A DNA stretch of 64,000 bases from Clytia hemisphaerica. Lineage: Eukaryota > Cnidaria > Hydrozoa > Leptothecata > Clytiidae. Below are positions 8,993 to 56,300 of the stretch, in pieces (within the stretch, counting starts at the first letter, position 1; the number at the start of each line of letters is the position of its first letter). Below the pieces are notes generated by a model. That model was given only the letters and a program-made list of their open reading frames with translations. It was not told the DNA's origin and made no database searches. Location of the stretch: contig CACVBU010000004.1 of NCBI GenBank assembly GCA_902728285.1, forward strand, positions 78,415 to 142,414, written 5' to 3'. The position numbers were made by a program, and so were the translations under genes.

Positions 8993-9120
8993 TTGTATTG
9001 TTGAGCTTGTTTGATTTTTAAAGTATCAAATATTACAAGCTTGGTTATATCGCTGCATCACAACATCTAAGCTACTGAAGCGATCATTCAAGTCACGTCT
9101 ACTTAAAACGATTTATTCAT

Positions 9121-10770
9121 TATTCTGTCGGAAATATGTTTTCATTTCATCAATAAACTTCAAGTACAAAATAATTACAATTGCCTTCAGGACCAAAACA
9201 TTGTTGCGATTCATTGGTGGATGTCATTTTTAAACCATCATTACCTATATGAATATCTTTGAAAGGTCATTATTCTGTCGGAAATATGTTTTCATTTCAT
9301 CAATAAACTTCGAGTACAAAATAATTACAATTGCCTTCAGGACCAAAACATTGTTGCGATTCATTGGTGGATGTCATTTTTAAACCATCATTACCAACAT
9401 AAATATCTTTAAAAGGTCATTTTTCTGTCAGAAATATGTTTCCATTTCATCATTAAACTTCGAGTACAAAATAATTACAATTGCCTTCAGGACCAAAACA
9501 TTGTTGCGATTCATTGGTGAATGTCATTTTTAAACCATCATTACCTATATAAATATCTATGAACAGTCATTTTTCTGTCAGAAATATGTTTTCATTTCAT
9601 CAGTAAACTTCGAGTACAAAATAATTACAATTGCCTTCAGGACCAAAACATTGTTGCGATTCATTGGTGAATGTCATTTTTAAACCATCATTACCTATAT
9701 AAATATCTATGAACAGTCATTTTTCTGTCAGAAATATGTTTTCATTTCATCAATAAACTTCGAGTACAAAATAATTACAATTGCCTTCAGGACGAAAACA
9801 TTGTTGCGATTCATTGGTGAATGTCATTTTTAAACCATCACTACCTATATAAATATCTATGAACAGTCATTTTTCTGTCAGAAATATGTTTTCATTTCAT
9901 CAATAAACTTCGAGTACAAAATAATTACAATTGCCTTCAGGACGAAAACATTGTTGCGATTCATTGGTGAATGTCATTTTTAAACCATCATTACCTATAT
10001 AAATATCTATGAACAGTCATTTTTCTGTCAGAAATATGTTTTCATTTCATCATTGAACTTCGAGTACATAATGGATATAATTGCCTTCAGGACCAAAAGA
10101 TTGTTGCAATTCATTGGTGGATGTCATTTTTAAATCATCATTACCTATATAAATACCTTTGAAAGGTCATTTTTCTGTCAGAAATATGTTTTCATTTCAT
10201 CAATAAACTTCGAGTACAAAATAATTACAATTGCCTTCAGGACCAAAACATTGTTGCGATTCATTGGTGAATGTCATTTTTAAATCATCATTACCTATAT
10301 AAGTACCTTTGAAAGGTCATTTTTCTGTCAGAAATATGTTTTCATTTCATCAATAAACTTCGAGTACAAAATAATTACAATTGCCTTCAGGACCAAAACA
10401 TTGTTGCGATTCATTGGTGAATGTCATTTTTAAACCATCATTACCTATATAGATATCTTTGGAAGGTCATTTTTCTGTCAGAAATATGTTTTTTTTTCAT
10501 CAATAAACTTCGAGTACATAATTATTATAATCACCTTCAGGACCAAAACATTGTTGCAATTCATTGGTGAATGTCATTTTTAAACCATCATTACCAACAT
10601 AAATATCTTTAAAAGGTCATTTTTCTGTCAGAAATATGTTTCCATTTCATCAATAAACTTCGAGTAAATAATTATTATAATCGCCTTCAGGACCGAAACA
10701 TTGTTGCGATTCATTGGTGAATGTCATTTTTAAACCATCATTACCTATATAAATATCTTTGAAAGGTCGA
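9121..10770 (-). repeat. Tandem array, 11 units of 150 bp, derived from the terminal exon of gene A
   Basis: Units begin at 9121, 9271, 9421 and so on every 150 bases to 10621. Each contains the reverse complement of the last about 37 codons of gene A's final exon, including the conserved TGA stop and about 35 bases beyond. The 10621 unit overlaps the real exon end (10650). Units are over 90% alike by eye. Most carry TTTCTGACAG, an acceptor-like motif in the minus orientation, just before the exon-derived part. Copy B has only about two such units (29560-29790). Confidence 0.95.
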
Positions 10771-16054: not shown

Positions 16055-16390
16055 TGTCCGATGATATTTAGCCTGTACCAGATGTCTACACTTTATGCCC
16101 TTTATGTATTATGAATGTTCGTCTAGAGCCTTTACATCACTTCATAACTTTTAAAGTAAAGTAAAGTAAAGTAAATGAATAATGATTAGCCCGCTAAGTT
16201 TAGAAGTTAAGTTTAGAATAACAAAATTTCGAGAAAAAAAACAAAAACGAATCAATTAAAGATTTTTTCGTATAAGCTGCAGCGGAAACAAAACCTATAA
16301 CAGCAGGTCTAACCTCGCGGACAAGTATTAGTTAAATAATAATAAAAATAGTAATAAAGCTTTACAGGTTTGTAGGCCACTGTGAAGACA
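16055..16390. promoter_or_regulatory. 5' flank of gene A
   Basis: Conserved with the 5' flank of gene B (40885-41070), including a short (AAAGT) repeat at about 16156 and the tract GCCCGCTAAGTTTAGAAGTT. No clear TATA box can be assigned. Promoter status is inferred only from position and conservation. Confidence 0.35.
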
Positions 16391-23287: not shown

Positions 23288-23507
23288 ACCGTGAGATTGG
23301 GTAACTTGCATCAGTGGAGGCTAACATGCATAGCCCTCAAATGAAAGACCTGGCTGGTCACTAAAATACAACTACACAGCTCCTCTCGCAGCTCTAGTCT
23401 ACCATTTTTGTTTTGACTTAACTTTGTATTTTAATGACCAGCTAGGTCTTTCATTTGAGGGCTATGTATGTTAGCCTCCACTGATGCAAGTTACCCAATC
23501 TCACGGT
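23288..23507. repeat. 220-bp perfect-armed palindrome (MITE)
   Basis: Left arm ACCGTGAGATTGGGTAACTT... and right arm ...GTTACCCAATCTCACGGT are near-identical inverted copies about 90 bases long around a short loop. Very few mismatches, so young. Confidence 0.9.
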
Positions 23508-28424: not shown

Positions 28425-29559
28425 AGAAAACACTCTAACACAACAACAACAAACAAATTATATGAATTTGCAACAATCAACAATCAACAAAAACGAAATT
28501 GATAATTCCGACCCCGACGGTGTGTAATGAAGAAAGGCGGCGAAAAAATGTGAGCAGAAAAACTTAACTTGCAACAGCTTTCGAGCCTTTGAATACGATA
28601 TTTTTCCGACATGATCCGTTATCGTTATTTGAGCTGGAGCATGACGTTTATTTGACGTTGTTTGGGATGTTATGGACGCAAGATGAATGTTACTTAAACG
28701 TTGTGTACCCGCTTGGATGCGAGTTGTTGGTGGAGCCGGAGAAAAACAAAACAAAATCCGATAATCGTATACAAGATTGAGAAATGAATGAATCCATTCA
28801 CAGAAAAAAACGTTGAATATTTTGAACAATTTTAAAATATAAGACAAAAATATTTTTAATACATAATATCTCTTACGTGTGTATTTCAGGAACTGAGCAG
28901 AATTTCTATGCCTTTCAATGTGCCTTTTGCGGAAGAAGATATACTTAATTAATTGAAGTTTAATTCAATTGGAAAAATAGTTACTTAGTTGTTTTGGCTA
29001 AAATTATGCTCAGTTTCTTCCAAAGATGAAAAATTGTAAATGTAAGAACAAAAATGTACAGTCTTAGAAAACATAATTAAATTGAAGAATAATTTCAGTG
29101 ATCAGCTAAAAATAATAACCCCCCCTCCGAAAAAGATCCATTAATGGCCCAAATTATTAACCAATGAATTGAATGAAATAGAAGTGAATCTCCTTGGTAG
29201 GATTTGAAGCCAACAAATCCTACCAAAATTGCGCCAGCCACCTGGTTTTTACACACGTGGCTGATTGAAACTAAAATTTACCACTAAATTTCGAAAAAAA
29301 ATATCACTAGAAAACAAAAGGACTGCTACATTCAACCCGTCGTCAAAAATGCAGCGCCCATTTTAAGGCTTCACTTTTTCTTGCCTGAGACAGGTCAAAG
29401 ATTCTCTTCTAGCCCTTCGGGCTTATACTTCATTGGTATTAATCTCCCTCACAAAAGTACGATACCGAGTACCTAAACGAAAGCAAAAACTTCGGTGTCT
29501 AAAATCGATTCATTTTTCGGTTACAGATATAGGAAGTTCGGACCAGTATCATACTGTCA

Positions 29560-29790
29560 TTTTTAAACCATCATTACCTATATAAATATCTTTGAAAGGT
29601 CGATATTCTTTCAGAAATATGTTTCCATTTCTCATCAATAAACTTCGAGTAAATAATGGTTAAAATCGCCTTCAGGACCAAAACATTGTTGCGATTCATT
29701 GGTGAATGTCATTTTTAAATCATCATTACCTATATAAATATCTTTGAAAGGTCATTATTCTGTCGGAAATATGTTTCCATTTCTCATCAA
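29560..29790 (-). repeat. Short form of the 150-bp terminal-exon repeat
   Basis: About one and a half further copies of the exon-derived unit just past the stop of gene B. This compares with eleven in gene A. Confidence 0.85.
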
Positions 29791-32700
29791 TAAACTTCGA
29801 GTAAATAATGGTTAAAATCGCCTTCAGGACCAAAGCATTGTTGTGATTCATTTGTGAATGTCATTTTTAAACCATCATTACCTATATAAATATCTTTGAA
29901 AGGTCGATATTCTTTTTCAACATTGTCAGCAGATAACAGGTCGTCGACTGCATCAATTGGGTAATCATCCCACACCCCATTCAGCCTGGATCTCCAACTA
30001 CTTGTCGTCTCCACAGGTCGGCTATCACTTTCTCCTGAGAAATATCGTATAACATTGAAATCGGCATCAGAAGCTTGTCTTTTGTTGCCCAGTGAAACTA
30101 ATTCTGTTGTGTTTCGAACACATTTCATGCGTATGGTTTCAAAGTTCATTAGTATTTTAGCCATGCGTAGAAAGGACGCATGCGCACGATAATTATTCTC
30201 AAGCACAAGACCATCTTCCATTGACGCAGCTTTTAGTTCCTTCACTGGAGCTTGGTCTCTTGTGTCTAGTCGGGTAAATCTCATAACTTTTCCTGATTTT
30301 AAAAAGAAAAAGAAAATATATCAGCTAGTTTAAAAGTTTCAGAAAAGTGTAGACATACAGTCAACTCGTTCTAATTCAAATTCTTATCATTCGAGTTTTC
30401 CTGAAATTACTCTCTGTAATTCGAATCAAATTTTTAGTTCCTTAAAGAACTGCATATCTATCTGATGAAATGATACTTGAAATAAAATAAAATCTCGCGA
30501 AATAGCTTTGGAAAAAAAATTAGCGAGTCTACCTAAAATTTACAAAAATTGGAACAATATTCTTCCTTCAAAGTAAATGTAATTATCTTCCGAACCTGAA
30601 CATTTTATATGAATTTTTCGTTGGTCTCTCCATGGATGTATTGTGTATTGTTGCAAACCGTTTGGTATATTGAAATGTTCTTTCAAAGCAATACAGGAAG
30701 CGTTTTTACCAAGTAAAATGTCTTAAAAATAGATGATTGATTTGGTAAACGAATTTTGTGAAATCAGCTCACTGTCAATTGGATAATAGTTTAAAAACGA
30801 CTTTTGAAAAAGTTTTTTTCTACTTTTAAAAACAATGAAAATAAAGAGTTTGTAAAAAAACGTTATCCAGATTGTACATGCTGTCTGGAAAAAAGCATCG
30901 AGTTTGAAAATATTATTGTGGAGATAAGTTTGTGATGATCCACGCCGAAATATGAGAAATCACAGCCTTATTATATAGAAAAGTTTGTTTTCTAAAAGGC
31001 ATTAATCGATAACCTTTTTTAAAAATCCTTTGTTGGACAAAATATACATCTTCAAAAAAGGAGGGGGAACTTAAAGGCTTGGGGACACCATCCCACCAAC
31101 CTGAAACGCTTTTTCGTGTCTCAACCCCATTTTTCTTTCTTTCTTGTCCCTGGGACAATGGAGCAAAATTGATTCGAATCTTCTTTTTGGGACAAAATCA
31201 GCGTGTCTTTTAGGTATTTCCCTCACTTTTTGTCCCATGAACAAAAAAAGAAACCATAGGACAAGCACTTTTTTCTTGTGTTGGTGGGATGGAGCATGTT
31301 CCCGCATGTTGCATTGCACAAACGTGAAAAAAAACTTCTCGTGTCCCCAAGCCTTAAAATACAACTTTGTGAACATACACATAAATTATTTTTACTCATA
31401 GTTGTGTTTCAGCTCGATACTTTTTTCCGGACACCCTGTTGTGGATAGAACATAAAACCAACCAAAAACGATTTAAGATAACATTTTCAAGATCAACGAT
31501 CATGCATAAAAACCCCACAAAGACCTTCCCTTTTCACAAGGAAACCTGGATGTATCTTTACATTGCATTTAAAAAAAATAGATTTCAAAGTTCAAAATTT
31601 ACCAATAGACGTCTAGAATAATAATAATATTTTCTTTCGTTAAACAACCCACCAAAAGCCTGAAAGATCTCTATTTTCCTCGGAGCAACGAAATTGTCGC
31701 ACCCTTTTTTATCTTACCTTGCGAAATCGTCGAGGGTATCGATGGACCTTAAAAAAAGAAATATAGTGAAGTTATATACACTGAAGAAGATACAAACTAG
31801 CGACTAACCATGACAATCTGTAATAAAAACCCAATGAAGAAAGAAATAAAACAAGTAATACTTTAATGGACCTACCTATTTATAAAACGAATAATTAGAA
31901 TTTAATGGAAGTAATGTATAATTTTAAATTTCGATTTATATATCTATTGGAACGGAGAAAGCAATTAAGAAACACCTTTTCGGCAGTACTAATGTGCATC
32001 TATGTGCAAAAAATCGCAAAAAACTAATGAGAAAATCTCGAGAAAATCTCAAAAAACCGCTTTTTTCGGGACATTTCCGGTTCTAGCGGCCGGAAAAATT
32101 TCTTTTCGGAAAATTGGGCTCTGTCACATTTTGGGCATTGGCATTTTACATCATTGTGCAAAAAATCATGAAAATCTGTCGAGTATAAGTTGAAAAAATG
32201 AAGGAAAACCATTTTACGCCGGTTTTCGGCTGTTCCGGCGATTTTTAAGGAGTTCCGGACTCAAAGGATGATTTTTTTGGAAATCAAACGATGCTAAGTT
32301 TTGGGCATCATCTAAAGAACATTTTCTGTAAAGAAACAATTAAAATAAGTTGAAAAAATGTGACGGAAATGTGAAAAAACGACGATTTCCGGCACATTTC
32401 CGGTTCTACAGACCGGAAAATTTTTTTTTTCGGCAAGCGGTTTTCGACACCTTTTCGGCAGTACTAATGTGCATCTATGTGCAAAAAATCGCAAAAAACT
32501 AATGATAAAATCTCGAGAAAATCTCAAAAAACCGCTTTTTTCGGGACATTTCCGGTTCTACCGGCCGGAAAATTTTTTTTTTCGAAAATCGGGCTCCGTC
32601 ACATTCGAGGGTTTATAGTAACACCTTTGTGCAAAAAATCAGAAAAATTAAATGAGCCAATCTCGAGAAAAGTTGGTAACTAACGTACTAACTAACTAAC

Positions 32701-35700
32701 GAACATGGGTTAATTTATAGGACCTCCACCCCACCGGGGTAGGTCCAAAAAGTAAAAAACAAAAGGAATGCACAAGACACAAAAGGAAGTGATAAGCTGA
32801 AGACCGAAGTTTGAGATCAGGTGCGCTAGCTTGATTAAGCATCTCCTGCCACTCTAGAGTCACCTGTCAGCTTAACAAGAAGAAAGAAATTAAAACATAG
32901 GCACAAAGTCTAACCATATAGTTAAGTATAGCAGAAAAGGAAAGGTTGAAAAGTCTAGAACCCGGTTTGGCGTCCCTTGCCCGACCGGCCGCCTCAAAGA
33001 GAGAGGGAGAAGAAATGACAAAATAATCAAGAAAATTAAACCAGCATTGCTACAGTCTACACAAGAGATAACTTCAAATTTCTGGCCTTTGAGGTTTTAT
33101 GTTTAAAATGAAGGATTAGTAGGGGGAAATTTGTAAAATCGCTCGATTTTTTTAGTCAAAGCACTTGTTATACATTTTTGGAAAGCTAAGGGGTAGGGGA
33201 ATCAAAATAACTTAGGTGCCAATTTTGTTTCGGACACTTTGGTGTGATTTTCGGACAAATACGACAGTCTCGGGCAAAAATCATAGGGTGAAAAATTAGT
33301 GAAAATTTTAACTTGAGAAAACGGAGACCTGTTGTATATTTTTGGAAAGCTCTCAAAAAATTAAGATTAGTGATATATTGCGAGTATAGGTGATTTCTTT
33401 ACCTAACTCGAGATTTTAATCCTTAAAAACAGTGTTTTTCAGTGTTTTTCAGCCAGAAACAGCTGTTTTGTCCAGTTTTAGCGCTTTTGGTAGCTCAATA
33501 TCTCGAGTTAGGTACTGAAATCACCTATACTCGCAATATATCACTAATCTTAATTTTTTGAGAGCTTTCCAAAAATATATAACAGGTCTCCGTTTTCTCA
33601 AGCTGAAATTTTCATTATTTTTTCACCCTATGATTTTTGCCCGAGACCGTCGTATTTGTCCGAAAATCATACCAAAGTGTCCGAAACAAAATTGGCACCC
33701 AAGTTATTTTGATTCCCCTACCCCTTAGCTTTCCAAAAATGTATAACAAGTGCTTTGACTAAAAAAATCGAGCGACCTCAAAAAAACGAACAAATTTCCC
33801 CCTACTAGATGGTAATATGTAGCCCAGCATTGGTTAAATCTTAAATTGTAATTAATTTACACAGAGAAACCGAAGTTTTCGATTCCACGGGATAAAACCG
33901 TGGGGAGGGGGGGGTGGCACTCAAGGTAAATGAGTGGAGCCAATCTTTACTGTGAAAGCACAGGCTGAAATCATACATCGCCCGGTGCCGACCATCCGGA
34001 TTCTATTCAGCGCGCAATCAAGGCAGAGAAAAGTAACCATGACGACCATTTAAGATCTTGGATTAAGTTCAAAGTTGATATTATTTTTTTCGCGTCATTG
34101 AAAACACAACTTAAAAATGTCATCAACGCCTTTTAAAAAGAGTCAAGAATCGTAACAAAAAGATTTGGTCAATTATTTCGATTCCATTAAAGTAACATTA
34201 CCATAATAAATAACTTAGTAATTACTGTTATACATTTGGGAATCATGTAGAAGATTTTTTTGAAAGAAACCAATTTCAATTACACTTGGAGATTTCTGAG
34301 GAATTCGTCAATAGTAAATATGTATATTAATACAGTCTGCTAGACATTAATATGGTAATATTTGCCCTTCATCTTTGTTGAATTCTTTCTACAGTGATTA
34401 GATTGACAGCCTATTTTTCATGGAAAGAAATAAAAAACATTTGTTTTGTTTGCAAAGCTCTTAAAAAACGAATTAAAAAATTTTATTTTCTCATTCTCAG
34501 CCTCAGCATGTTTCTTAGTTTTTAGGCATTCTGAACCTCGTTTTTCTTAAAAAAAAAACGTGTAACACTCAGGGGTAAAATTCCAGTGTTTTCGATATGA
34601 AAAACGACGTAATCTTGGCTTACGCATATCAATAATAATAATTACCAGTTTCATTGCAATGTTTGCCAGTGTATGGAGGGAAACAATGGAGACATTGATA
34701 TGTTTTAGTCAAGCGGTTCGGTGAGCAAATACTTCCATGTTCACATAACAATGCATTCTGCATACAGGGATTCTGAAACGAAAAAATTCCATAATAGACC
34801 TTTTCATAAATTACGTCACGAACATCACTTGCCTCGTATTCAAACAATTACCATGGTGATCACATCCCTGGAGACATTAAATGGTTTTTTATGAAAAGAA
34901 TAAGTAGTTGTAATAAAATCCGCTGGGAGTTAATCATCATGGCAATAATTTCAAAACGTGCCGTAATTTGTAAAATGTCTATCTAACTTTCTATCCTTAG
35001 ACCAGGTCGATCTGGGGGGTCTGCGTCCCCCAAGAGGTGAAAAATGTTTGATGGTGGTTTTGGGTTGCTAAGATGCTATATTTTCAGGAATGAGACGGTA
35101 AATAGGCTGTTAAGGGGGCTAACTAAAATGGTAAGCTAGGTAAGTGGGGGGTTTTTTAGCCAAAATACCAATTTGTAAGGGATTTTGCTTGAGACTTGAA
35201 ACACCATGGTAACTTAGAAGTGCGATTCTGCACTATCTAAAAATCGTTATTGCTTGAAACTTTCCAAATATGTTACAAATAGGTAAAATAACATTTTGAA
35301 AAAAGAAAATTCAAAAATATTTACCAGGGGGTTCTGTACCAAAGAAAACAGGGGGTAAAACACGAAAAAAACCCCCAAAATCGTATTTTTTCAGCAGAAA
35401 AGTGGTCCTACGCAAACGAAAAACTGTTTATGATACTTCAAAGGTTATGTGGTGATAGATCGTGATTGCTCTCATCATAATATCAGGATTAACTATCCAC
35501 TGGGGGCTTAATTCTTTATTTTCAGGGGGTAAAAATTGCAAAAAATACTCATTTTTTGACCAAAATTCAAATTTTTGAGCTAATGTCTCGCGATTAACCC
35601 CTCAAACAGTCTAAAACTATTAAAATTCCCAATAAAAAGCCTTTAAACTAATAAATTTATCAGTTTTTAAGTTAGAAAATTTCAAAATACCTCAAATCCG

Positions 35701-38700
35701 GGGTAAAATGTCCAAAAATGTTAGATCTTTACAAAAAAATCACTTTTTTTCAAAATTAAAGACTACCAAAGAGACTTTAATGACAGTGCGGTTCACACAA
35801 ATCAGAATTACACCAATTAGGCTCAAATTTGGTTGTAGTCAGTTTAATCGAAAGAAAAATATGACACCTTTATAGATCTAGAAACCTTTTGTGACCAATT
35901 TATATCTAATTATCAGCAATAATCAGCCTTATCTCATTACACAATGTGTTACGTTGGATTTTCAATCTAATCTAGAGAGTGTTTTCAGTTATTCAAAACG
36001 TTTGTAATGTAAATTTTGTAACATTTTTGTTAAAAGAATCTCTGAAAAGTGCCGTGTTTAAGTTATCATGTTTAAGTGCGTGGGTTGCGTGAGTTTTATT
36101 TCAAAAAGCTCCGAAAGTGCCCGATTGTTTGTACGACATCAGTTCTGACCCTGAGAGCTTTGACAGCATGATACCTCCGAATTGGAACGAATTCTTACAA
36201 AGATACGAGCGCTACGGTCAAGATGTTCGAGATTGGAAAGTCGGCAAAACAGCCTAGTTTTGGATGGTACACCTGAACATCGTGAGAATTCAGCACAAGA
36301 TTCACACAGCCGTCCAAACAAACAACTTCGAGATGAGATTGCAAGCGTGGGATGAGATGCTGCCTTGCGTGGGATGAGATGTTGCCTTTCTATTTTGCAT
36401 TTAACAAAACCAACTATGCAAGATATGTCTTGTGGTATGTCCAAATACACGTTTTTTTTTATAAGAACAAACTATATAAGAACATAAGGCTTCGAGGCCC
36501 AAAAATTTAAGAACATTCTAAGAACATTCTAAGGCTTTGGAGACTTAAAAACATGCATTTTCTTAAGAAATTACATCAAAATGCTCAAAAAATGCTGAAA
36601 ATAAGAACATTTTAAGAACATTTTTAGGCTTCAAATTCAAAAAACTAAGAACATCTGAAGGCTTCGAAAATTTTTGACGTTCATAAAAAAAAAAACGTGT
36701 AATGAAGGAGATTGATCTGCGATACCCTGGCTTGACAGAGACCTTCAAAATGTCTGGAATTTCTGTCCAAGCTCAATCAGCTTATCCTTCCACAGATCAG
36801 CGTGGAGAACAGTCGATCAACCGCGATGCTAAAACCTCAGATAAATAATTACATTAATAGGGAATTAGGTTCAATATGAAATCTTTCCCAATCAAAATCA
36901 ATATGTATTTACCTCGCGTTTGATCACTGGAGATAAATCAAATAGAAGGGTTACTACAGAAAAATTCGTCATTTTCAGGTGGAATCAAGTTTTTTGCGAA
37001 CAAAAAGGACGCAGTTCTAAAATGGTGTTTGAATCGAGCTGACATAGCTAAAACAACCTCTGAATTAAAAAAGATGGCTGGCACTTTAAGATTATGTGAT
37101 AAATACAAGCCTATGAGACCGTCCAAGATTCTTGCCAGTGAAAAGCATGTGACAAAAATTTTTCAGGTGGTGAAAGGGAAATACATCAATCCTTTTGATT
37201 TAGGTCTGGAGGGGCTATACAACTTTTCTTCTCTGGGGAAATGGTTGAGGAATCGTTTGCAAGCAAGATTTTGAAAATAGAAGAAGACGGGAAGAGAATG
37301 CGAGACGAATTTGAGCAGTCAAGTGTCAAAGGAAATCCAAAGAAAGACAGATTGAGCCGAGTTCCTATCTACATATTCAAGACATATTCAACATCAGTCA
37401 TTAAATGTCAATATTTTGCAAATACAATAATAGAAGTAAATCGGGATATCATTGGTACCCTTCTTTCGTTTTCAATTAGAAATGAACGCGCAATTGATAT
37501 TCCATCAGCTCTTGTCTACCCATTGGCTCCTGCACCTCTCAGTCTTGCACATGGAAATGGAAAACACCAAAAACGTGAAACACCAAAAAGCAGGCTAATG
37601 AAACTACTGGTTGCAGATACGACAACTAGAAAGATCCTAGATCAGATGTTTCACTGAAGTCTATCAAGAAGAAAGATAAGTCCTTTGTCATTGACCTGAT
37701 TGCTGCTATTTGGACTATGACGAAATTCATTGGAGACCTGCCAAAATGGTACAACCGTATTGATATTGTTGCTGACACATACAGATCCAATTCGATCAAA
37801 GGTGATGAACGTAATGAGCGTGGTAAAGATCAAAAAGTTATGATCGCATCCAAGGAATCGATATTTCCCTATGACTTCGGAGACTTCATGAGGAATGTTG
37901 AAAACAAAACAAAATTGGTTGAGCTGATGTCAGAAGTAATGAGAAGTAATTATCAGAGAGTATTGCAGACCACAAATTGTTCGAAGGTCTATTTTTCTCA
38001 AGAAGGTGTTACGTATTGTCTTAGTCGAACGGGTGTCACTATTTCAGAGAATTTGTCATCTGATCAAGAGGAAGCTGACTCAAAGGTCACCCCTCACTGC
38101 AGTCATGTCCTGAAAGAAAATCCCGAAGCGAAAGTAATCTTAAGATCTCCATCTGCAGACACTGACATCTTTGTTCTTGCAGCATGTCTTCTAAGTCCAA
38201 CCAAAATCTATCTTGACTACGGCAAAGGGAAGACACGGAAAGGGTTTTGGACAGGCAACCTTGGCAAAGATGCTGTCAAGTACAAAACATCTTTGAGTGG
38301 TTTCCACGCCTTTACAGGAAACGATTACATATAATCATTATTCTTCAAAGAAGGAAAATCAACCTGCTTCAATAAAATGAAGAAGAATAGAAATTTCGTG
38401 GAAGCTTTTCGCCGCTTGGGAGAATCATGGAATTTGGAAGAAGAAACTCAAAATTATTTGGAACGATTCGTCTGCGCCCTTTATGGTTATCCTAAAGAAA
38501 CATCAGTCAACGTAGCGAGAGCAAAAATGTTTGAAAAGAAGTACACCAAAAGCAGAAAAATTATCGATATGGCCATGCTTCCTCCGTCTCAGTCAATTTT
38601 GATTCTCCACTCGAAGAAGGCAAACTACGTTAGCAAACTTTGGAAATCATCATTAATAAGTTGGTTAACAAGGAGATATTACAGAAAGTGGTTGGTCGAA

Positions 38701-40884
38701 CGACGGATCTACAATTTGGGTTGACGAGGTAATCTTTCCCCTTAAAGTTGAGGAGATACTTTGTGATGCGACCTACAACAGCGAAGAAGCTGAAGTTGGA
38801 GAAGATGAAATTTCCGACGACGAATCGGATGAAGACGAAGATGAAGAGATCAGCTGAGGATGACGACGAGAACTAAATAATATGAAGGTGTAAGATTTGT
38901 TGTTGTTTAATTTGACATCGCTATGATTGGTTTATTATGGATAATTCTAAAGCTATTGATATTATGATAGACTTTTTTATTACGTTGTCTCAGTATATTT
39001 TTCATAGAAAGCTGTTACTTTTAGCCGATTTGAAAGTCTTATGGACTACCAGTTTTTGTCGAAAAGAAGGTGTTTTTGCAATTTTCGCCCTAAAATCAAG
39101 AAAACTGGTTATGACTTATGATTTTGTTTTTTTGTCCAAAAATTGATTTTAATTTTTAAAAAATTGTGATATTTTGTAAAAATTTAATATTTTAAGACAT
39201 TTTACCCCCGATTTTGAGATATTTTGAAACTTTCTAACCTAGAAACAGATAAATTTATTAGTTTAAAGGCTTTTTATTGGGAATTTTCATAGTTGTAGAC
39301 TGTTTGAGGGGTTAATCGCGAGACATTAGCTCAAAAATTTGAATTTTGGTCAAAAAATGAGTATTTTTGCAAGTTTTACCCCCTGAAAATAAAGAATTAA
39401 GCCCCCAGTGGATAGTTAATCCTGATATTATGATGAGAGCAATCACGATCTATCACCACATAACCTTTGAAGTATCATAAACAGTTTTTCGTTTGCCTAT
39501 GACCACTTTTCTACTGAAAAAATACGATTTTGGGGGTTTTTTTCGTTTTTTACCCCCTGTTTTCTTTGGTACAGAACCCCCTGGTAAATATTTTTGAATT
39601 TTTCTTTTTTCAAAATTTTATTTTACCTATTTGTAACATATTTGGAAAGTTTCAAGCAATAAAGATTTTTAGATAGTGCAGAATCGCACTTCTAAGTTAC
39701 CATGGTGTTTCAAGTCTCAAGCAAAATCCCTTACAAATTGGTATTTTGGCTAAAAACACCCCCACTTACCTAGCTTACCATTTTAGTTAGCCCCCCTTAA
39801 CAGCCTATTTACCGTCTCATTCCTGAAAATATAGCATCTTAGCAACCCAAAACCACCATCAAATATTTTTCACCTCTTGGGGGACGCAGACCCCCCAGAT
39901 CGACCTGGTCTACCTTATATTTACATCTTTGTTCTGGGCAAACTTGGTCGCTTGATTGACAGAATTTCACAAACGACCTTATCTAGGGTATCATGTGCCA
40001 AATTTTACAATCCCAAAGTAATTTATTCATGACTAAATCCTATTATGTCTCCCAAAATTATTTCATTTCTTTTAGTTAAGTTTAGGGTTGGTTATTGATG
40101 AGTTAGGATCAGGGTTAGAGCTCCCGAGAGTACACTTTTGAGGCATTTTAAGTTCTCTGGTAGGGTTTGAACTATTGCCATATATTGGATCAGTAAACTA
40201 TACTATCGTTATCTACAGTGGTCTTGTAGTCGAACGGTAGAGCATCGGACTACTGCACAAGGAAACTTTCTGTTTGCAGGTTCAAACCCCTTCTGGGTCC
40301 AAATTGTTGAAAATTTCAAAATTCGTTCAAAATCACTAAAGTCACTCAGAAACATCAATGAAAGTCTCCATGGTCAGAAATCGAAAACAAAAATCAGCGA
40401 GGAGGAGTAGTGTGGTGGGAGACATTACTGGAGTTAGCCCGAAGTCATAAAACCCTCTAAATGCATATATTATTTGCTTTAAAGATTATAAATATAAACT
40501 TACCCAAATTTCATAAGCATCAAATTGGTTATCCTGTAAAATGTAAGTAGGAGAGACACGGTATACTTCGGCAGAACAGCGACATAACCCATAATGTTCT
40601 CGCCATGTCCAGGTAACACACATTGGTTTTCTCATACAAGTATCAGCACATTCCATTTTAGAGGAGCCACTGAAATTACAATCGATATGTCTACCGAGTG
40701 TAGCCCATACCTTATATCCACGAGTTAATTTCTTGAATCGCATATACTGTACATGTGTTTGTTGTCTGGTGATGTTTGTCGATTGCCACATATATGTTTG
40801 GTTTGATGCAAACGTGTGAGTAAATGTTAGTATTAACTGTAAAACCGTGATAGCGTGTAGGTTGAATGTTAGATACAGCATCAT
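29787..40884 (-). CDS. Gene B: paralogue of gene A, five exons
   Basis: Exons 40884-40504, 34772-34646, 31747-31718, 30721-30596 and 30292-29787: the same lengths as gene A (381, 127, 30, 126, 506) and the same phases, so also 389 residues. Signal peptide, PAN/apple (CNFSGSSKMECADTC), EGF starting NPC, linker exon, exon with NASCIALKEHFNIPNGL, and final exon starting with MRFTRLD. Changes against gene A are scattered, without stops or frameshifts, and several are synonymous (for example in the linker exon), so both appear maintained. Intron 1 is 5.7 kb because the 4.9-kb transposon sits in it; intron 2 holds a foldback element. An in-frame upstream ATG at 40926 could add 14 residues; the shared paired Met is preferred. 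Confidence 0.85.
31076..31353. repeat. MITE with GGCTTGGGGACAC ends, copy 2
   Basis: Paralogous to 13565-13853, in the same place between exons 3 and 4 of gene B, hence older than the duplication. A small inner deletion differs from copy 1. Confidence 0.85.
31867..32747. mobile_element. MITE-like element with TGGACCTACC ends, copy 2
   Basis: Same ends and inner TTCCGG subunits as 23776-24464, with an extra subunit. It lies in intron 2 of gene B; the matching site in copy A lacks it. Confidence 0.8.
32748..33060. other. Sequence found only in copy B
   Basis: About 300 bases with no counterpart in copy A and no gene; includes GC-rich GACCGGCCGCCTC. Possibly part of an inserted element. Confidence 0.35.
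33117..33807. mobile_element. 691-bp foldback element with 3-bp target duplication
   Basis: Almost wholly palindromic: arms of about 330 bases around a short loop near 33450. Terminal TAGTAGGGGGAAATTTG is perfectly inverted at the right end. GAT flanks both sides (33114-33116, 33808-33810). Copy A keeps the empty site GAAGGATGGTAAT at about 14506-14518, with one GAT. Non-coding. Confidence 0.92.
36068..38857 (+). pseudogene. Broken transposon gene: acidic-tailed family with ADTDIFVLA motif
   Basis: Family marks, in order: PPNWNEFLQRYERYG (36175), WDEMLPFYFAFNKTNYARYV (about 36370), a segment around INRDAKT (36815), GGIKFFANKK after an acceptor at 36977, KHVTKIFQVVKGKYINPF (37145), ALVYPLAPAPLSLAHGNGK (37510), SADTDIFVLAACLL (38150), GFHAFTGNDY (38300) and a Glu/Asp-rich tail to 38857. 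From memory this is a widespread cnidarian repeat-associated family; the ADTD motif resembles PIN/XPG-type nuclease acidic motifs, but function is not established. Breaks: nested MITE at 36448-36699, frameshifts near 37228, 37640 and 38700, an in-frame TAA after GNDYI at about 38332, a small direct duplication at about 36355-36385, and a donor reading ATAAAT before the 36977 acceptor. Not functional here. Confidence 0.75.
36448..36699. mobile_element. 252-bp MITE nested in the transposon gene
   Basis: Ends CACGTTTTTTTTTATAAGAA and its approximate complement ending AAAAACGTG. TA duplicates at 36446-36447 and 36700-36701. Removing it with one TA restores an uninterrupted frame (...YVQI then MKEID), so it landed in a coding exon. 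Relatives: 47400-47673 and 53639-54001. Confidence 0.9.
38870..39190. other. 3' flank of the transposon gene
   Basis: Non-coding AT-rich sequence between the acidic-tail stop and the start of the right inverted repeat. Confidence 0.5.
40218..40301 (+). repeat. tRNA-derived sequence (SINE head or tRNA pseudogene)
   Basis: A perfect A box (TAGTCGAACGG) and B box (GGTTCAAACCC) at tRNA spacing. Acceptor and T stems pair poorly (several mismatches and wobbles), so a working tRNA is unlikely. The tail continues into non-repetitive sequence. Copy A keeps only the first half (15593). Confidence 0.5.
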
Positions 40885-41070
40885 TGTCAAATAATATTTA
40901 GCATGTACCAGATGTCTACACTTCATGTATTATGAATGTTCGTCTAGAGCCTTTACATCACTTCGTAGCTTTTAAAGTAAAGTAAAGTAAAGTAAAGAAA
41001 ACGAAAAAAGATTAGCCCGCTAAGTTTAGAAGTTAAGTTTAGAATAATAAAATTTCAAAAACAAATAAAA

Positions 41071-41890
41071 AGGGTACATAACAAAAAGAAACATCAAGAG
41101 CTCCCTTAAGCTTGGTACTCACTTATGTAAAAAATTGCGCCTAAGTGCGTTTAGCGCACTTAAACGCCATCTATGTACTCACTACAAAGTGATTTGAATG
41201 AAAGATATGGAAAAAGGAGCTAGGTGCACTTAGATGCAATATTCAAATTTCAAAAGAATTGAATAGTTTGGAAGTAATTAAAGTCTATTCACGATAAGTG
41301 TGCACTCTTTTTTCTTTTACCTATAACTTTTGAAGGAATTCTTCAATCTTTATAAATTTGGTATCGTTGGAGAGATATTTGTGAGTGGAACAATTTGAAA
41401 TAAAAAAGTTTTTAAAAAAATTCTGAAAACGAAGATGAAAATGAAGAAGAAAAAAATGAAGATCTTTTAGAGAAGCGCCATAACTTTCATTTTCACTGGA
41501 GAGATTCTTTGATTTAAGAGGTCGTCACTGTGAAGAAATTTCACTAAAATATTTACTCAATATAAAGTTATGATACAAAGCTAACAAGTGATTGACCCCA
41601 AAAAACAGCAGAAAACAGCGTTTTTAGACGTCATTATTTTTGAGAATTTTTTTCAAAGTGATGACGTTTGACGTTCATTTATTGTTTTTTTTTAAATGAT
41701 ATCAAAAAGAATTCAAATGAGAATGAATTGGTTGAAAGGAAATTTGTGAGTGGAGTGTTAATATCAAAGACCTGAAAAACAAAGATGAATGATGAAGAAG
41801 AAACAAAAAAATAAACTATGATTTGAACTTCACTAATTGTAATTGTCTTCTTCATTTTGAATCTTCGCTTTCAACTCTTTCTTATTTTTT
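41071..41890. other. No supported gene
   Basis: AT-rich and purine-rich sequence (AAGATGAAAATGAAGAAG runs). A short palindrome, TAAGTGCG...CGCACTTA, lies at 41141-41162. No copy A counterpart. Confidence 0.45.
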
Positions 41891-46600: not shown

Positions 46601-48303
46601 GTCATCAATAATTAGCTACCTACCTGATATACTTGGAATGCTTCTTCTCCCATTCCTCTCTCATATTGAATTCGTAATACATGATGAACACCAGTAACGT
46701 AAATGCCACCAGCACTCCTAATCCATAGATAACTGAAAAACACAAAAGATATCCAAGTAATCTACAATCTTGCTCGAAATATTTGGCACAAAAGGGGAAT
46801 TCCCTCCAAACTTTAAAACCGCAAGTGATTTTTAAGTGCTTATTGAAGTACAGTTTGGAAGATAGAGTTTCAGCATAAGACTTAAGTCCTAGGACCTTAG
46901 TATCTCAGGATCTAAAAGCTAAAAAATGTTCCAATAAGGCTGGGAATGTAGCCTGGAAGCCACTTAACCCCTCTCAAATCGAAAAATCCAATGAAGCAAA
47001 GTGGAACTACTGAAACTGCAATTCCCGCCCGACCTTTAAATTCTGAAAAACGTTAAAATACCCAAAATTCCCAATATATTTCGGCGCTGATTGCAGATAG
47101 CCCAAATAATCTTTGACTCAATTGTTTTCCACGTCAGCCGGCTCGGCTATCTGGGAAATGAACAGAACATTGGAAGGAGCGGGGATTGGAACTGGGAACC
47201 TTCTGGTTTTAAAATCCCTCATTTTTTAAAAGGAGAATGTCTTTTTCAGAGCAAAGGTGAAATAAAAATCCATATGGAACACAAAAAATGTGTAAGTGCG
47301 TGGTTGATATTCCAGACAAGCTTAGCCAGTTTCTAAAAAAACAACCCCTCAAATATAGGAATATCGAAGTTTTTAACCTACACACATTTATTTACGATAC
47401 ACGCTTTTTTTTATAAGATTGGTGTAAATCCATTTCATCATGGATATTCTTAACTGGGATAATCATCCTAAAATATTCTTACAGCATTCTTAGGTTAGGA
47501 TCCTAATTCAGACTTCAGATTTAACATTTAGAATATACGTCTCATGCATAAAATGGCATTCTTAGCTTGAGCAGCCAAGTTCTATGATAGTGATATATTT
47601 AGCATCATAAAATTTTTTGGCCATTTTCATCATAGACATTCCTATAAAGTGTATTCTTATAAAAAAAAGCATGTACATATCTTTTTATCCTGGAACAAAA
47701 ATTAACATTGCCAAAACCCGATAACTTGGAGAGGCAGGGGAATGGCTATACATCTTTTTTATGAGAACAATTCAAGAACAATCCCAAGTCTTGAATTGCT
47801 TGACTTTGCGCAAACTTAGGGTCAAATCAGTAAAAATAGAGTATGAGGCCCAAAAAAGCTCAATACTATCCTATAAGTTAACTTGTGAATAAGTAAAGGC
47901 TAATAGCGAGAAAAGAAAATAAGAGCAGTCGAGCCTTAACTAAAATTAACTGGTTGAGATGGAAATGGGCTTTTCCAGAAATAGTCCGTGCCCCTCCCCC
48001 CGTAAAAACCATATCTAGGGGATAAGCATCTTTATAAGAGAGGATATCCAGGCGGTTGAGCATATCTTTTAAGACTGGATATCAAGGGGTCTTTAATAAT
48101 AAAGAAGGATATCCAAGTGGTTCAATACGAAAAATCAATATCCTATCAACAGTGGGGGTTAAATTTTTTTCTGCAAAAGTCCAATAGAGAAATAGCCTGG
48201 ATTAACTCACTCATCCTGTAGAAGGTTTTGGTCAAATTTTTGACAGCTTTTGGGACCAGAAATACACTGCAATCATTTCGAAGTTTCTTTAGTTGTATTA
48301 CAC
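43688..48303 (-). CDS. Membrane segment and cytoplasmic tail exons of a receptor-like gene
   Basis: Exons in coding order: 48303-48211, 46732-46624, 45193-45014 (180 bases, phase-neutral) and 44309-43688 with a stop. All have GT-AG sites and matching phases (1, 2, 2). The 46732 exon encodes a clear membrane helix, IIYGLGVLVAFTLLVFIMYY, followed by charged EFNMREEWEKKHSKYI. The last exon gives about 206 hydrophilic residues with YQNP and YTPL tyrosine motifs. The 180-base exon reads less naturally in its required frame and can be skipped without frameshift, so it may be alternative or spurious. The first exon needs one base from an upstream exon; a GT inside the fibrinogen gene's last exon (53415) would supply it. 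No known domain in the tail. Confidence 0.55.
44379..44502. repeat. Small pogo/Tigger-like MITE remnant
   Basis: CAGTCAGCTCTCTCTAATTC at the left and GAGAGTCAACT at the right are inverted, with TA at the left. Decayed relatives lie at 11219 and 30358, where they host other insertions. Confidence 0.5.
45913..46131. repeat. MITE with GGCTTGGGGACAC ends, copy 3
   Basis: Same ends as 13565-13853 and inner similarity (AAGCGTTTCAGGTTGGTGAGA, in the other orientation). TAA-type flanks. Located in the intron between the tail exons at 46624 and 45193. Confidence 0.85.
46150..46377 (+). CDS. Small open frame with signal peptide, unknown
   Basis: Seventy-five residues starting MLVLWKIYVFAFLIAIE, a good signal peptide, then SDIQELSEDIDSLSKEK, a short amphipathic helix. 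It starts right after MITE copy 3 and lies antisense within an intron of the tail gene. Codon use is protein-like. It may be a single-exon peptide gene or a first exon; no homologue recognised. Confidence 0.35.
   Translation: MLVLWKIYVFAFLIAIERSITVECYSMKSDIQELSEDIDSLSKEKNNFGKSLAISEDHVFVLADQTINVYQGTNT
46398..46590. repeat. 193-bp palindromic MITE (CCTTTTCGACC ends), copy 2
   Basis: Ends CCTTTTCGACC and GGTCGAAAAGG are perfect inverted repeats. Same length as 8800-8992, but the inside is inverted relative to it. Ends 34 bases from the donor of the membrane exon. Confidence 0.8.
46760..47399. other. Intron sequence, no other gene seen
   Basis: AT-rich; short frames only. Confidence 0.5.
47400..47673. 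repeat. MITE with CACG(C)TTTTTTTTATAAG ends
   Basis: Left CACGCTTTTTTTTATAAGA, right TCTTATAAAAAAAAGCATG, TA on both sides (47398-47399, 47674-47675). Same family as 36448-36699. Confidence 0.8.
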
Positions 48304-48420: not shown

Positions 48421-50893
48421 GGCATACCGGATAAGTGGGATGGGGGAACCTGGGAACCTAAAGTGGGAACCTAAATGAACACCGGAAAAGTGGGATGGGG
48501 GAACCTAAAGTGGGAACCTAAATGAACACCTGAAAAGTGGGATGGGGGAACCTAAGTGGGAACCTAAGTGAACACCTGAAAAGTGGGATGGGGGAACCTA
48601 AGTGGGAACCTAAATGAACACCGGAAAAGTGGGATGGGGAACCTAAGTGGGAACCTAAATGAACACCGGAAAAGTGGGATGGGGAACCTAAGTGGGAACC
48701 TAAATGAACACCGGAAAAGTGGGATGGGGGGGGGAACCTAAGTGGGAACCTAAATGAACACCTGAAAAAGTGGGATGGGGGAACCTAAGTGGGAACCTAA
48801 ATGAAACACCTGAAAAGTGGGACGGGGGAACCTAAGTGGGAACCTAAATGAACACCTGAAAAGTGGGATGGGGGAACCTAAGTGGGAACCTAAGTTGTTT
48901 AATTATTAATAGAATTGAAATATTTTTCTTTAAAAACAAATACATAAAGATAAGAAAGATATTATATGCAATGAAAGAAAAAACCTTTTATCATAATAAG
49001 AACACCAGTTATTTACTTTTTACATTACGGTTCCAAACAATAATGTTGAAAATAAAACAAAGGGAATTTATTTATTCAATTAGCTCAAAAAAGCATGTTT
49101 ATTTATCAGCAGTTTTATAGTGCATCTTTTTGAAAGGTTCTTTTTAGTAAATTGACTTAAATTGACTTTAAACTTTAAACTTTAAACCGTCATATCTTCA
49201 AATCTAAAAGGAATTAGAAGTTCGTTCATAGCTCGATGGATAACTTAGAGCCTCTTCTTTCTTTTGCACGGATCTAATTTGCTTGAATACAGAATCTAGT
49301 AAAACATTATTTATGATCTAGTTTTTGTTCACTCTTGATGCAATACACATTGTTTTTTATTAGCAGCTCCAATTTTCGGGTCAGGGCTGGGGTCGCTTAG
49401 CATTTAACGGATTCTAGCTCGTTTTTCTTTCTGTACCAACCAAACAGTACAGCGTGTGAATACACTTCATTAATTAAAAATGTTTGATAGTAAAATAGAA
49501 CATATTGCACGGCTTGCCACGTTTCAATACACATAGGCATAGATCCACGGGGGGGGGGGCACTCAAGGTAAACGACCTACCGTACGTGCGGCCCTTTTTT
49601 CCAAGCTTCCCAAAGTACACTGTAAGGGTGGAAATGAGCAAAAATGAGAATAAGTTCACTCTAAGGGTTTAAAATTTGGTCAAAGGACTGGCTTTTAGAA
49701 TTTCATCCGAACAAGTGTCATGTTTTAACACTGGGTAAATTTTGGAACATCAAATATGTCCATCCCTATACCATAGCAGGATCTGTTCTAGAACAAGTTG
49801 ACCAAGAAAAAGATCTAGGAGTGATAATCGATAGTGACCTGACCTTTGAAGCCCATATATTCAGTAAAATCAAGAAAGCTAACTCTATCGTTGGCTTGAT
49901 TAGCAGGAGCTTCGAATTTCTCTCACCAGATATGTTTCGAACGCTTTTCATTGCATTTGTCAGACCCCATTTGGAATATGCACATGTAGTATGGTCTCCA
50001 AGGCTAATCAAACATGTCAAAGCAATTGAGGGCGTCCAACGAAGAGCTACTAGGCTAGTTAGTTGCTATAGAAACTACTCATACGAAGATCGGCTACGAC
50101 TCATCAATCTACCTAACGTAAAGACCAGGCGGCAAGTTGGTGATATGGTGGAAGTTTTCAAGAACCTCCACATTTATGACGAGTCTATAAGATTAGAGAA
50201 ATTTACTCCTCGAACACGCCCACGACGTCAGCATGATTACGAGCTTCAAAGGAACTTTGCTAATGACGGTATGAGAGGCTACCAAAGCAACTCTCTTTTT
50301 CACAGAAGTGTGAAACCTTGGAATGATCTAGAAGAAGATATTGTTGAAGCACCATCCTTACAAGTCTTCAAAGAGCGTTTGATAAAAGAAAGGGAGAAAA
50401 AACTTTATAAAATGTAAAATCAAAAGTTCTGTTTCATAGAGGTCAATAGACCTGCGAAATATATTGCTATAAAAAAAAAATAATAATAAAAAAAAAAAAT
50501 AATAAAAATAAAAATTTAGGTTCCCACTTTAGGTTCCCCCATCCCACTTTTCCGGTGTTCATTTAGGTTCCCACTTAGGTTCCCCCATCCCACTTTTCAG
50601 GTGTTCATTTAGGTTCCCACTTAGGTTCCCCCATCCCACTTTTCCGGTGTTCATTTAGGTTCCCACTTAGGTTCCCCCATCCCACTTTAAAGGTGTTCAT
50701 TTAGGTTCCCACTTAGGTTCCCCCATCCCACTTTTCAGGTGTTCATTTAGGTTCCCACTTAGGTTCCCCCATCCCACTTTTCAGGTGTTCATTTAGGTTC
50801 CCACTTTAGGTTCCCCCATCCCACTTTTCAGGTGTTCATTTAGTTTCCCACTTTAGGTTCCCAGGTTCCCCCATCCCACTTATCCGGTATGCC
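48421..50893. mobile_element. 2.47-kb foldback element, minisatellite arms, 9-bp target duplication
   Basis: Ends GGCATACCGGATAAGTGGGA and its complement. The perfect 9-base duplication ATCAAAAAC lies at 48412-48420 and 50894-50902. Left arm (to about 48895) has about ten units of about 46 bp with GGGATGGGGGAACC and GTGGGAACCTAA; the right arm (from about 50517) has about eight in inverted orientation. Long inverted repeats made of short tandem units with 9-bp duplications match Drosophila FB elements and Mutator-type (MULE) families. The centre holds a LINE fragment rather than a transposase, so it is non-autonomous. Confidence 0.93.
49665..50417 (+). pseudogene. LINE (CR1/jockey-like) reverse transcriptase, 3' part
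   Basis: An open frame of 251 codons without the N-terminal domains. It begins inside the palm/thumb region (DWLLEFHPNKC, then KDLGVIIDSDLTFEAHI) and runs through RPHLEYAHVVWSP and GVQRRATRLV to a natural stop, followed by a short 3' UTR and an A-rich (AATAA) tail at 50471-50515. The catalytic YxDD region is absent, so it is a 5'-truncated copy. The tail abuts the right arm of the foldback element. The frame is undamaged. Confidence 0.9.
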
Positions 50894-53374: not shown

Positions 53375-56300
53375 TCAATCGATTGAAATTGATTCAAACG
53401 ATTCTTCTTTTTTACTTCTCATCATGATTAGCGTTTCTTTGAGAGATTCAACAGGACCTGCAAATTCTTCCCAAATGATCCCTTGAGACGATGATGGTAC
53501 ACCTCCGTTCGATCGGTAACGACCATTCAGATTGATTGGAAAACAGCTGTTCATCCACCAACCTATGAAAAATAAACGTTCCAAAGTTGGTCTTATGTTT
53601 GTAACCCTCTTCAAATCCCATCAAGCTAACTTAGAGTACACGTGTTTTTTTATAAGGATACACTTTTTTATAAGAATCTCCATGATGAAAATGGCCAAAA
53701 ATTATATATTAAGAATATGCTAAGAATATCACCTTTAATGGAATTTTTCTACTCAAGCTAAGAATGTCTGTCATTTTTAGAGAATTTTCAATTATAAATT
53801 GCCATTTACCAGCATGTAAGGCTCACTCCTTTCACAAAAATGCTATTTTATGCTTGAGACGTATGTACTAAATGTTAAATCTAGTCTGAATTAGGATCCT
53901 AACCTAAGAATGCTGTAAGAATATTTCAGGATGATTTTCCCAAAAAAGTTGAGAATATCCATGATGAAATGGATTTACACCATTCTTATAAAAAAAGCGT
54001 TTATAGTTATTATGCACCGGAAGCTCTATGCGTCAAGAGTTGACAGAGTCGGGTAAGCGCAGTAGTTTCTCGACCCTAGGATAGCGAGTGCTTGTTCTTC
54101 TTATAAGGCCTGATCTGTCCATCGTTCTCTTACACAACCAAAAAAGGTTTTTAAAACAAGCGCTGTAAATTGCTAATAACTACCTTATTTTGGGGGCATT
54201 TATGTGTACAATTACCAACCTCCTCGAAAATTAGCTCCCCCCCTGATTATTCAAACCCCTCTCCCCGTTTATCAGGCATCTGAGCTGAGAGTATTACCGA
54301 AGTACTCTTAGGTTCCAAATAAACGGGAGGGGACCTAATTGCCGGGAGGTTGGAAATCGTACTTCTGAAAACCAAAAAATAAGGTAAATATAGGTTAAAA
54401 TCAGGCTTTTTAGAGCGAAATAAGGGGCGAAAAGTTAACAAGCGGTGGGGCCCGTTTATTTGGAGCCTAAGAGTAGATAACAGTAAATGAATTAGTGGTC
54501 TTTCAATTTACCTGAAGGGTAATTTTGGGCACAATTACTATCTCCAAAATTATCATTATCTGAATCGAATGTGCTGAATCTCATCCCATTCAAAGCTGTC
54601 CAATCTCTCCCGTAATTTACACCTGTTTTTCTACCACTTGTTATTCTGTACTTTGTGATTTCGCCATCCACTGAAAAACCTTGATGATAAAAAAGGTAAA
54701 AACAAAGTTAAGGGTTTTGTTTTTAAATAAGAGTGATATCGTTTGCTTAGTTATCAATTTTAATTTACAAGCTTTTTCACGTTGAATTGACACGGATGTG
54801 GAGCAAGATTGGTCAGAAAGAGGAAAAGAACAACATTTTTTGCTTATATCAGCATAATATAACAATAGGAAGACACTGTCCTGATTGTGTCTGATATGAA
54901 ACGGGGACACTTATGTAAAAATAAAACCTTTAACAATAGTTGAAGCAAAGTTAGTTTGAAATTAAAAATTAGTGGCAAGTGACGGGCCTTTAGTTGAGTT
55001 TGTCGGGTTTCTGTTAATAAAATGAGTTAAAAATCAAAAAGAAGGAATACATGATGGAAAACCCCGCAAAGGAACGCAAAGAAATTTGTTACCACCAGTG
55101 GAAAATTCAAACGCATTTAGCAAACAATTTACATTACAGTCGACGCTCTCTAATTCGACGTTCTACTATTCGATAGGCTCCCTTATTCGATGATATTTAA
55201 AGTCCCCGTCAACAAGAAACTCTCATAAACGACGCTCTCTTATTCGATAAGCTCCCTTATTCGATGAAAATTCAAAATCCCCTTGAAGATCGAATTAGAG
55301 AGCGTCAACTGTACCTTCAAAATGTTCAAATCTTGTATTGCCAATAAATCGTTTAGCAAAGATGAGAACTTCGACAGTTGGTTTGGATTTGGTGAATTGA
55401 TGAATCTTCTCCAAACCAAGCCAGTGGTTACCATGGATATTACCAAATCCAACCTTGTAGTCCAACCATGATCTGTAGAAATCGACAAACCCGTCTTTAC
55501 GGCGCTGGAAAACTGTCCATCCTAAACAAAACAATAGAGCAAATTACACTGAAAAATCGGTATCATTAAAGATAACTTAATGGAACCAATTTTCGCGGTG
55601 CAGTTTGGGTTTCTACCGTAAAAGTTAGCTTCGCAGAAATATTGAAAATTAAAAAATCATGAATTTCCTAAGATATTGAAGAAAAGAAATTCATTAAAAA
55701 GTAGGTGTCAACCTGCGAATATCTGTTCTTAAAAAACGCCCATCTTCTTAAACCACGGAAATTTTATTTCCCCGTTAAGTCTTTTCTAATGATGCGATTC
55801 ATAAGACTTTGAAGTTTAATTCTGCTCTCTACAGTACCTACAAGCTGTGAGCAAAGAGAAAGCTTTTTCCGTTTCCTTCTTTGTTAATATCGTTGTTATT
55901 GTAGACAGGGAAAGGATTGGAAGTTTGTTTGTAGGACTTTTGTGATCCAAACAACCTTGATTTTCGACGTCATCTTTCTATCGGGACTGTGAACCAGTTA
56001 AACAAATCCATATTTGAGATTCCAATTAGTAGATATATGGTAAAAATTCAAGAGGAACCTACCTGCTCCGAAACTTTGTTGATCTTACATTATACAATAG
56101 ACTGGAGTTGATTTTCCACCGATGGTTATGTTATACACACCATCGTCTTCAGATCCATTCTCATACCAATCAAGACATTCCGGTAAACTGCTTAGTGGCG
56201 GTGTTGGTGCTAGTGGAAGAATCGGATCTTGATCTTCGTTGCTGCAAGAAAGCTGTTCATTCAACTTTACAATCTTGGCGCTTTTATGATGCACCAATAC

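Follow-up and report, generated by a model that had tools for sequence, protein, structure and literature searches.

The window analysed here, a stretch of 64,000 nucleotides from the genome of the hydrozoan Clytia hemisphaerica, contains a transposable element that is very probably a non-autonomous, internally deleted derivative of the AcademX type. It retains long inverted ends, a 3-bp target-site duplication and the decayed coding sequence of a predicted nuclease of the XPG/FEN1 kind. AcademX elements and the family of the window element are alike in the nuclease and the 3-bp duplications, and a candidate DDE transposase lies upstream in the full-length relatives; the window copy differs in that the DDE part is lost and the frame of the nuclease is broken. 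Since the nuclease and the 3-bp duplications match the published marks of AcademX, we have placed the element there. The features are listed in Table 1.

Table 1. Features of the element, in coordinates of the window.
Feature	Position	Strand	Basis
Left target-site duplication, CCT	34995..34997	.	flanking bases compared
Whole element, very probably a non-autonomous AcademX-type derivative	34998..39912	+	inverted ends, boundaries, 3-bp duplication
Left terminal inverted repeat, starts TAGACCAGGTCGATC	34998..35760	+	end alignment
Internal-deletion junction, ~51 bp of filler; the corresponding DNA of L048 is ~2.77 kb long and holds a 463-aa ORF with candidate DDE residues	36044..36096	.	
Coding remnant between the DDE part and the nuclease, matching the 170-aa ORF of L048	36093..36374	+	ORF comparison
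Nested MITE-like insert, ~255 bp, ends ACACGTTTTTTTTTATAAGAAC, TA at its edges	36446..36701	.	absent from L045
Linker-region coding pieces before the nuclease, two frames	36924..37654	+	
Predicted XPG/FEN1-like nuclease domain of 364 codons, interrupted by a TAA at 38332	37630..38721	+	
D22, candidate equivalent of FEN1 D34	37693..37695	+	D in 29/37 rows, E in 2, gap in 6; motif only
D49, equivalent of EXO1 D78 / FEN1 D86	37774..37776	+	D in 33/37 rows, P in 1, gap in 3; profile alignment to EXO1
E147-E148-A149-D150, candidate equivalents of FEN1 E158/E160	38068..38079	+	E147, E148 and D150 each in 36/37 rows; motif and spacing
D177-T-D179, candidate equivalents of FEN1 D179/D181	38158..38166	+	37/37 rows; motif and spacing
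D232 of GNDY, equivalent of EXO1 D225 / FEN1 D233	38323..38325	+	37/37 rows; profile alignment to EXO1
Acidic C-terminal tail, another frame	38669..38854	+	
Right terminal inverted repeat	39148..39912	-	end alignment
Right target-site duplication, CCT	39913..39915	.	flanking bases compared

The element is 4,915 bp in length and is bounded by inverted ends of ~763 bp each, which are 95.8% identical across 766-767 aligned columns. A first-pass annotation of this DNA had recognised a unit of ~4.9 kb with inverted ends, and that unit is real; the long inverted repeat is likewise confirmed, and is slightly longer than the length of about 720 bp given there. The annotation had also noted TA at both edges. 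This dinucleotide in fact opens the inverted end (TAGACCAGG), and the duplication is the CCT that lies outside it. A TA target duplication was rejected because the TA is inside the inverted end and the flanking 3-mers differ among copies. Duplication of TA is the mark of the Tc1/mariner family, from which the window element differs in having the 3-bp duplication instead.

Duplications of 3 bp were found in 12 of the 19 elements checked, and in 12 of 14 where both termini could be located. They are CCT in the window, TTA in L043 and L045, GAG in L050, GTA in L051, ATT in L056, TTT in L057, AAA in L058 and L059, TAT in L061, CAT in L062 and TAC in L063; those of L059 and L061 are weaker, as they come from a search over many offsets. 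The count omits three elements: only one end of L048 falls within its stretch, the ends of L049 could not be located, and no inverted repeat was found in L053. No 3-bp duplication was found in seven of the 19: in L044, L046, L052, L054 and L055 one end is missing or not located, and in L047 and L060 both ends are present and the flanks are unlike one another.

Positions 14699-16247 of the window are a segmental duplicate of the flanks of the element (34000-41160), 79-95% identical by piece, from which the element is absent. It was rejected as a clean empty site because it also lacks ~18 and 207 bp beside the element. Other repeats were noted in the window. At 48421-50893, inverted arrays of 46-bp tandem units flank an ORF (49821-50417) that by eye resembles the end of a non-LTR reverse transcriptase. 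A tandem array of 150-bp units occupies 9117-10916, with a shorter array of related units at 29555-29935, and each is overlapped by a similar 165-aa ORF on the minus strand (10650-11147 and 29787-30284). Near-perfect hairpins are present at 33130-33784 (288-nt arms) and 23288-23507 (84-nt arms).

The assembly from which the window comes (417 Mb in 951 contigs) was searched for further copies. The 364-codon nuclease domain (37630-38721) has 116 matches, including the window itself. Six are close copies with 88-92% identity, one has 63% and one 62% identity, and there are shorter pieces as well as many further matches at 29-44%, in which the open frames reach 891 aa. A search with the initial 121 bases of the end gave 29 matches in the genome, 19 of them with at least 96% identity over at least 107 bases; both numbers include the window's own two ends. 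The genomic sequence examined comprised 20 stretches of 10 kb, a further 19 of ~1 kb and one of 5 kb, and six short end pieces. Inverted ends of 274-1,153 bp surround the gene in 11 of the 12 divergent relatives for which 10-kb stretches were available, and were not found within the 10 kb of the twelfth, L053. The gene is usually bounded by such ends. The distance between the aligned ends is 2.8 kb in L051 and 6.7-7.9 kb in the 10 others.

No relative was confirmed in the viral and prokaryote collections, and tblastn gave no match in plasmids and phages. A 17-base pattern taken from the end occurs in 23 viral-contig stretches, none of which has the HA-TG-D motif, and these were taken as chance. 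Patterns for the HA-TG-D motif itself gave 0, 0 and 11 stretches, and the 11 were judged to be chance by eye from their translations.

The coding region of the window copy is on the + strand, in pieces distributed across three frames, with a TAA at 38332 directly after GNDYI. It had been described as one gene, a description that does not survive the breaks in its reading. The features reported earlier, i.e. ADTDIFVLA, GFHAFTGNDY and the acidic tail, are all present. Taken alone, the coding pieces of the window gave no significant match in Pfam, PHROGs or PDB. The MITE-like insert lies upstream of the nuclease, and L045 provides the corresponding empty site. Other ends of this insert type are found in the window as a second pair at 47399-47674 and a lone end at 53638-53659.

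The nuclease domain of the window was aligned with those of 36 of 38 stretches, L045 and L046 being dropped, to give alignment A2 of 37 rows; L050 and L063 gave pieces of <150 aa. Residues D177, T178, D179, H226, T229, G230, D232 and S236 are invariant in the 37 rows. The acidic residues are related to the seven acids of FEN1, and to those of EXO1, in Table 1, with a FEN1 numbering that fits the FEN1 sequence used here. When the window domain was shuffled 300,000 times, 2 shuffles reproduced the arrangement of acids that FEN1, EXO1 and GEN1 have in common, a pattern that was set post hoc.

When the A2 profile was compared with PDB, the best five rows were all Exonuclease 1, with E values of 0.0011, 0.0011, 0.0012, 0.0041 and 0.065. 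These are versions of one protein, and the next row is S100-A9 at 0.14. The EXO1 match is made up of two collinear stretches, neither significant alone in the alignments shown. Profile-profile comparison gave a weak match to two FEN1s (probability 4.4%, E 0.0092), and comparison of single sequences with FEN1, EXO1 and GEN1 gave no signal, 148 of 200 shuffles scoring as high.

Folding by AlphaFold with A2 gave a model with pLDDT 81.4 and pTM 0.80; the single-sequence fold of the window domain had a pLDDT of 36 and was of no use. Foldseek against PDB matched the model to P. furiosus FEN-1 (E 3.5e-4), XRN1 (7.1e-3) and A. fulgidus FEN-1 (1.9e-2); ranks 4 and 5 are unrelated proteins, followed by P. 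horikoshii FEN-1 and the M. smegmatis flap endonuclease. One PDB match has E <=0.001, and the TM-scores by query length for the FEN-1 and XRN1 matches are low (0.30-0.43) with large rmsd. In a library of viral structures the top ten matches include XPG-I, XRN and 5'-3' exonucleases. Of the named matches to predicted viral structures, the fish herpesvirus protein Allo54 ranks first (E 1.1e-6, for the fold of 37630-38721), and two frog herpesvirus proteins are within the top five. From these models it is possible that the herpesvirus proteins and the transposon nuclease share an origin.

Conservation of the acids through the 37 rows, the profile and the fold comparison, for which EXO1, FEN-1 and XRN1 are best, support assignment of the domain as a predicted nuclease of the XPG/FEN1 branch of the PIN superfamily. 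The earlier suggestion that ADTDIFVLA resembles a PIN/XPG-like motif was thus a good one. With the XPG/Rad2 nucleases (EXO1, FEN1, GEN1 and XPG) the domain shares a PIN-like fold by model, the acidic positions and G-x-D-Y; it differs in being part of a transposon and in showing no similarity detectable by single-sequence comparison. The fold family includes host repair nucleases, so that an XPG/FEN1-like gene of the host might have been captured by an unrelated long-ended element. We consider this extremely improbable, given the weak sequence resemblance to FEN1 and EXO1, the 116 matches in one genome, and the long inverted ends of 11 of the 12 divergent relatives.

Values of dN/dS were sought for 14 pairs of nuclease sequences, and six gave none since synonymous change was saturated. 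Those for two older pairs, L059/L060 (0.057) and L070/L071 (0.036), speak for selection but are rough, with synonymous change near saturation. The other six of the eight values, from pairs of closely related copies, lie between 0.56 and 1.53, and five of these are between copies of one family.

The element had been thought to be of complete length. Comparison with L048, a member of the same family that has the same left end (94% identity), reveals that the window copy lacks ~2.7 kb. The window copy also carries the nested insert of ~255 bp, which L045 lacks. The right end of L048 was not found in its stretch. The window copy, L044, L045, L046 and L047 can be aligned without a break over the deletion junction. 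As these five copies with a common deletion are on five contigs, the deleted form must itself have moved. The targets of deletion-form copies differ, being CCT for the window and TTA for L045. L043 is not counted among the five, having undergone a further loss (element 325-1211) on the left side of this junction. The alignments indicate a single deletion that was followed by several transpositions of the deleted form.

The part that was lost can be seen in L048. Its 463-aa ORF includes FWVDNFDI...GSVNTTH and ITLDVGAAINAF...HLGDFHF, with DNFD and LDVG as motifs of candidate DDE residues. The next ORF includes SGFKD...YNR...SEALERLLL, and is followed by a 550-aa open frame with the nuclease. The DNFD motif and the second-D motif are each found in five of six rows of divergent relatives; the row of L052 begins past DNFD, and that of L057 stops before the second D. 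Similar exons carrying the candidate E are present in L054, L055, L057 and L058, and they also have a match in L059 and L060 (best blastp E 2.5e-19). In these two relatives a single open frame, of 880 aa in L059 and 891 aa in L060, contains the nuclease together with the second D and the E.

The association of the two parts was examined with 29 nuclease rows picked by hand from the 116 (identity >=36%, E ~1e-35 or less, additional pieces of a single copy dropped) and 37 of 90 DDE rows. For 16 of the 29 nuclease matches there is a same-strand DDE match no more than 8 kb upstream, in 14 of them at a distance of 1.7-2.2 kb. The other 13 have no DDE match, and six of these are the window and its close copies. 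No DDE match exists in the window copy, where the DDD/E transposase is absent by deletion. The lack of a recognised transposase motif, noted in the first-pass annotation, is thus due to the deletion and is not a trait of the family, as L048 has the candidate DDE exons.

Two further elements are informative. L063 (1-4951) has both window-type ends and a duplication of TAC, and has kept the first part of the DDE region (97-98% identity to L048); the exon carrying the candidate E is gone, as is nearly the whole nuclease. A role for L063 as a transposase-only partner was rejected, because the exon with the candidate E is also missing. L051 (5388-8194, reversed stretch) belongs to another family than the window element. 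It is a nuclease-only element of 2.8 kb with 274-bp ends, a duplication of GTA and an open ORF of 509 aa, and has no DDE match. The nuclease region of L052 is 97% identical to that of L051 (372 residues), and L052 has DDE ORFs upstream.

These elements bear on a view in line with the first-pass annotation, in which the nuclease would act by itself as transposase and mark a new group. In favour of such a view, L051 provides another element with an open nuclease ORF and no DDE match, and the window-type deletion form has reached several sites. However, for both L051 and the window type there is a close relative that bears a DDE part (L052 and L048, respectively), so the proposal is poorly supported; with a DDE match upstream in 16 of 29 cases, it is largely refuted by L048 and L052, and we regard it as highly improbable. 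The annotation had itself named ends of this kind around a known transposase in intact copies as the observation that would count against it, and such an arrangement is largely what was found. Within the family of the window, an open nuclease frame is preceded by candidate DDE exons in L048, for which the left end was located, and L063 retains the two ends along with the initial part of the DDE region. Other families include elements in which both ends are present and the nuclease is preceded by DDE exons. It is also conceivable, if very unlikely, that this is a split two-part system, in which nuclease-only forms (the window type and L051) keep the nuclease to aid their own mobilisation and obtain transposase from full-length copies.

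We return to the preferred reading of the window element as a deleted AcademX-type element. For the upstream part of its family there was no match in Pfam or in PDB. In L059 and L060, DUF6589 (PF20231) scores below its Pfam cut-off just upstream of the nuclease, and by its position in the sequence DUF6589 may be an Academ-like transposase part. Separately, DUF6589 has 105 matches in the same genome and 0 in 14 control genomes. Academ proteins share the DDE appearance of the upstream part, which we infer to be a candidate DDE transposase of the Academ superfamily. The nuclease of AcademX is of the XPG type.

PMC10045372 gives target duplications of 3 or 4 bp for AcademX and of 9 or 10 bp for AcademH, and there the difference is linked to the encoded nuclease versus helicase (PMC10045372, citing Kojima 2020). 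AcademH belongs to the same superfamily as the window element if the assignment to AcademX is right. It differs in the helicase and the duplications of 9-10 bp (PMC10045372), the duplications here being 3 bp; no helicase match was found in seven ORFs. Academ elements are abundant in bivalves, with a mean consensus of 5,565 bp (PMC10294476); this mean of 5.6 kb compares with 6.7-7.9 kb for the full-length relatives here. The KolobokD, E and P elements likewise combine a DDE transposase with an added nuclease, which is of the DEDDh, PD-D/ExK or His-Me type (PMC9587614), whereas that here is XPG-like. Among the literature matches listed, there was no paper that joined Academ, XPG and transposon.

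The same data could be read as a separate, undescribed superfamily that combines DDE and XPG-like parts, whose likeness to AcademX would be limited to the nuclease and the 3-bp duplications. In favour of this reading, neither Pfam nor PDB gave a match for the upstream part in the family of the window, and the likeness to Academ is one of description, not of sequence-level comparison. Against this, a nuclease together with a duplication of 3-4 bp is the mark of AcademX (PMC10045372), and Academ is common in bivalves with a mean consensus of 5,565 bp (PMC10294476). We think a separate superfamily unlikely. The first-pass claim that the element defines a transposon group with a non-standard nuclease must then give way to that of a deletion derivative of an element of a published kind, with transposase plus nuclease (PMC10045372).

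A likely scheme for the family is as follows. The full-length element of ~6.7-7.9 kb would encode the DDE transposase part and then the XPG/FEN1-like nuclease, most likely as one protein. Recognition of the long inverted ends, and the cutting and joining of the DNA, would most likely fall to the transposase part; a 3-bp stagger in the cutting of the target would generate the 3-bp duplications. Branched or flapped DNA that arises as the element is excised or integrated, or as gaps are repaired, is most likely trimmed by the nuclease domain. The window copy would have lost its transposase part, and the deleted form would have been mobilised in trans by full-length relatives and have subsequently decayed. 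In its present state it would need both transposase and nuclease from elsewhere.

The sequence and fold evidence points to a lineage of transposons in which a FEN1/EXO1-like nuclease with a conserved active site lies beside a candidate transposase, the two being in one frame in two relatives. Natural copies without the transposase half, or with most of the nuclease missing, would make the role of a flap-type nuclease in cut-and-paste transposition testable.
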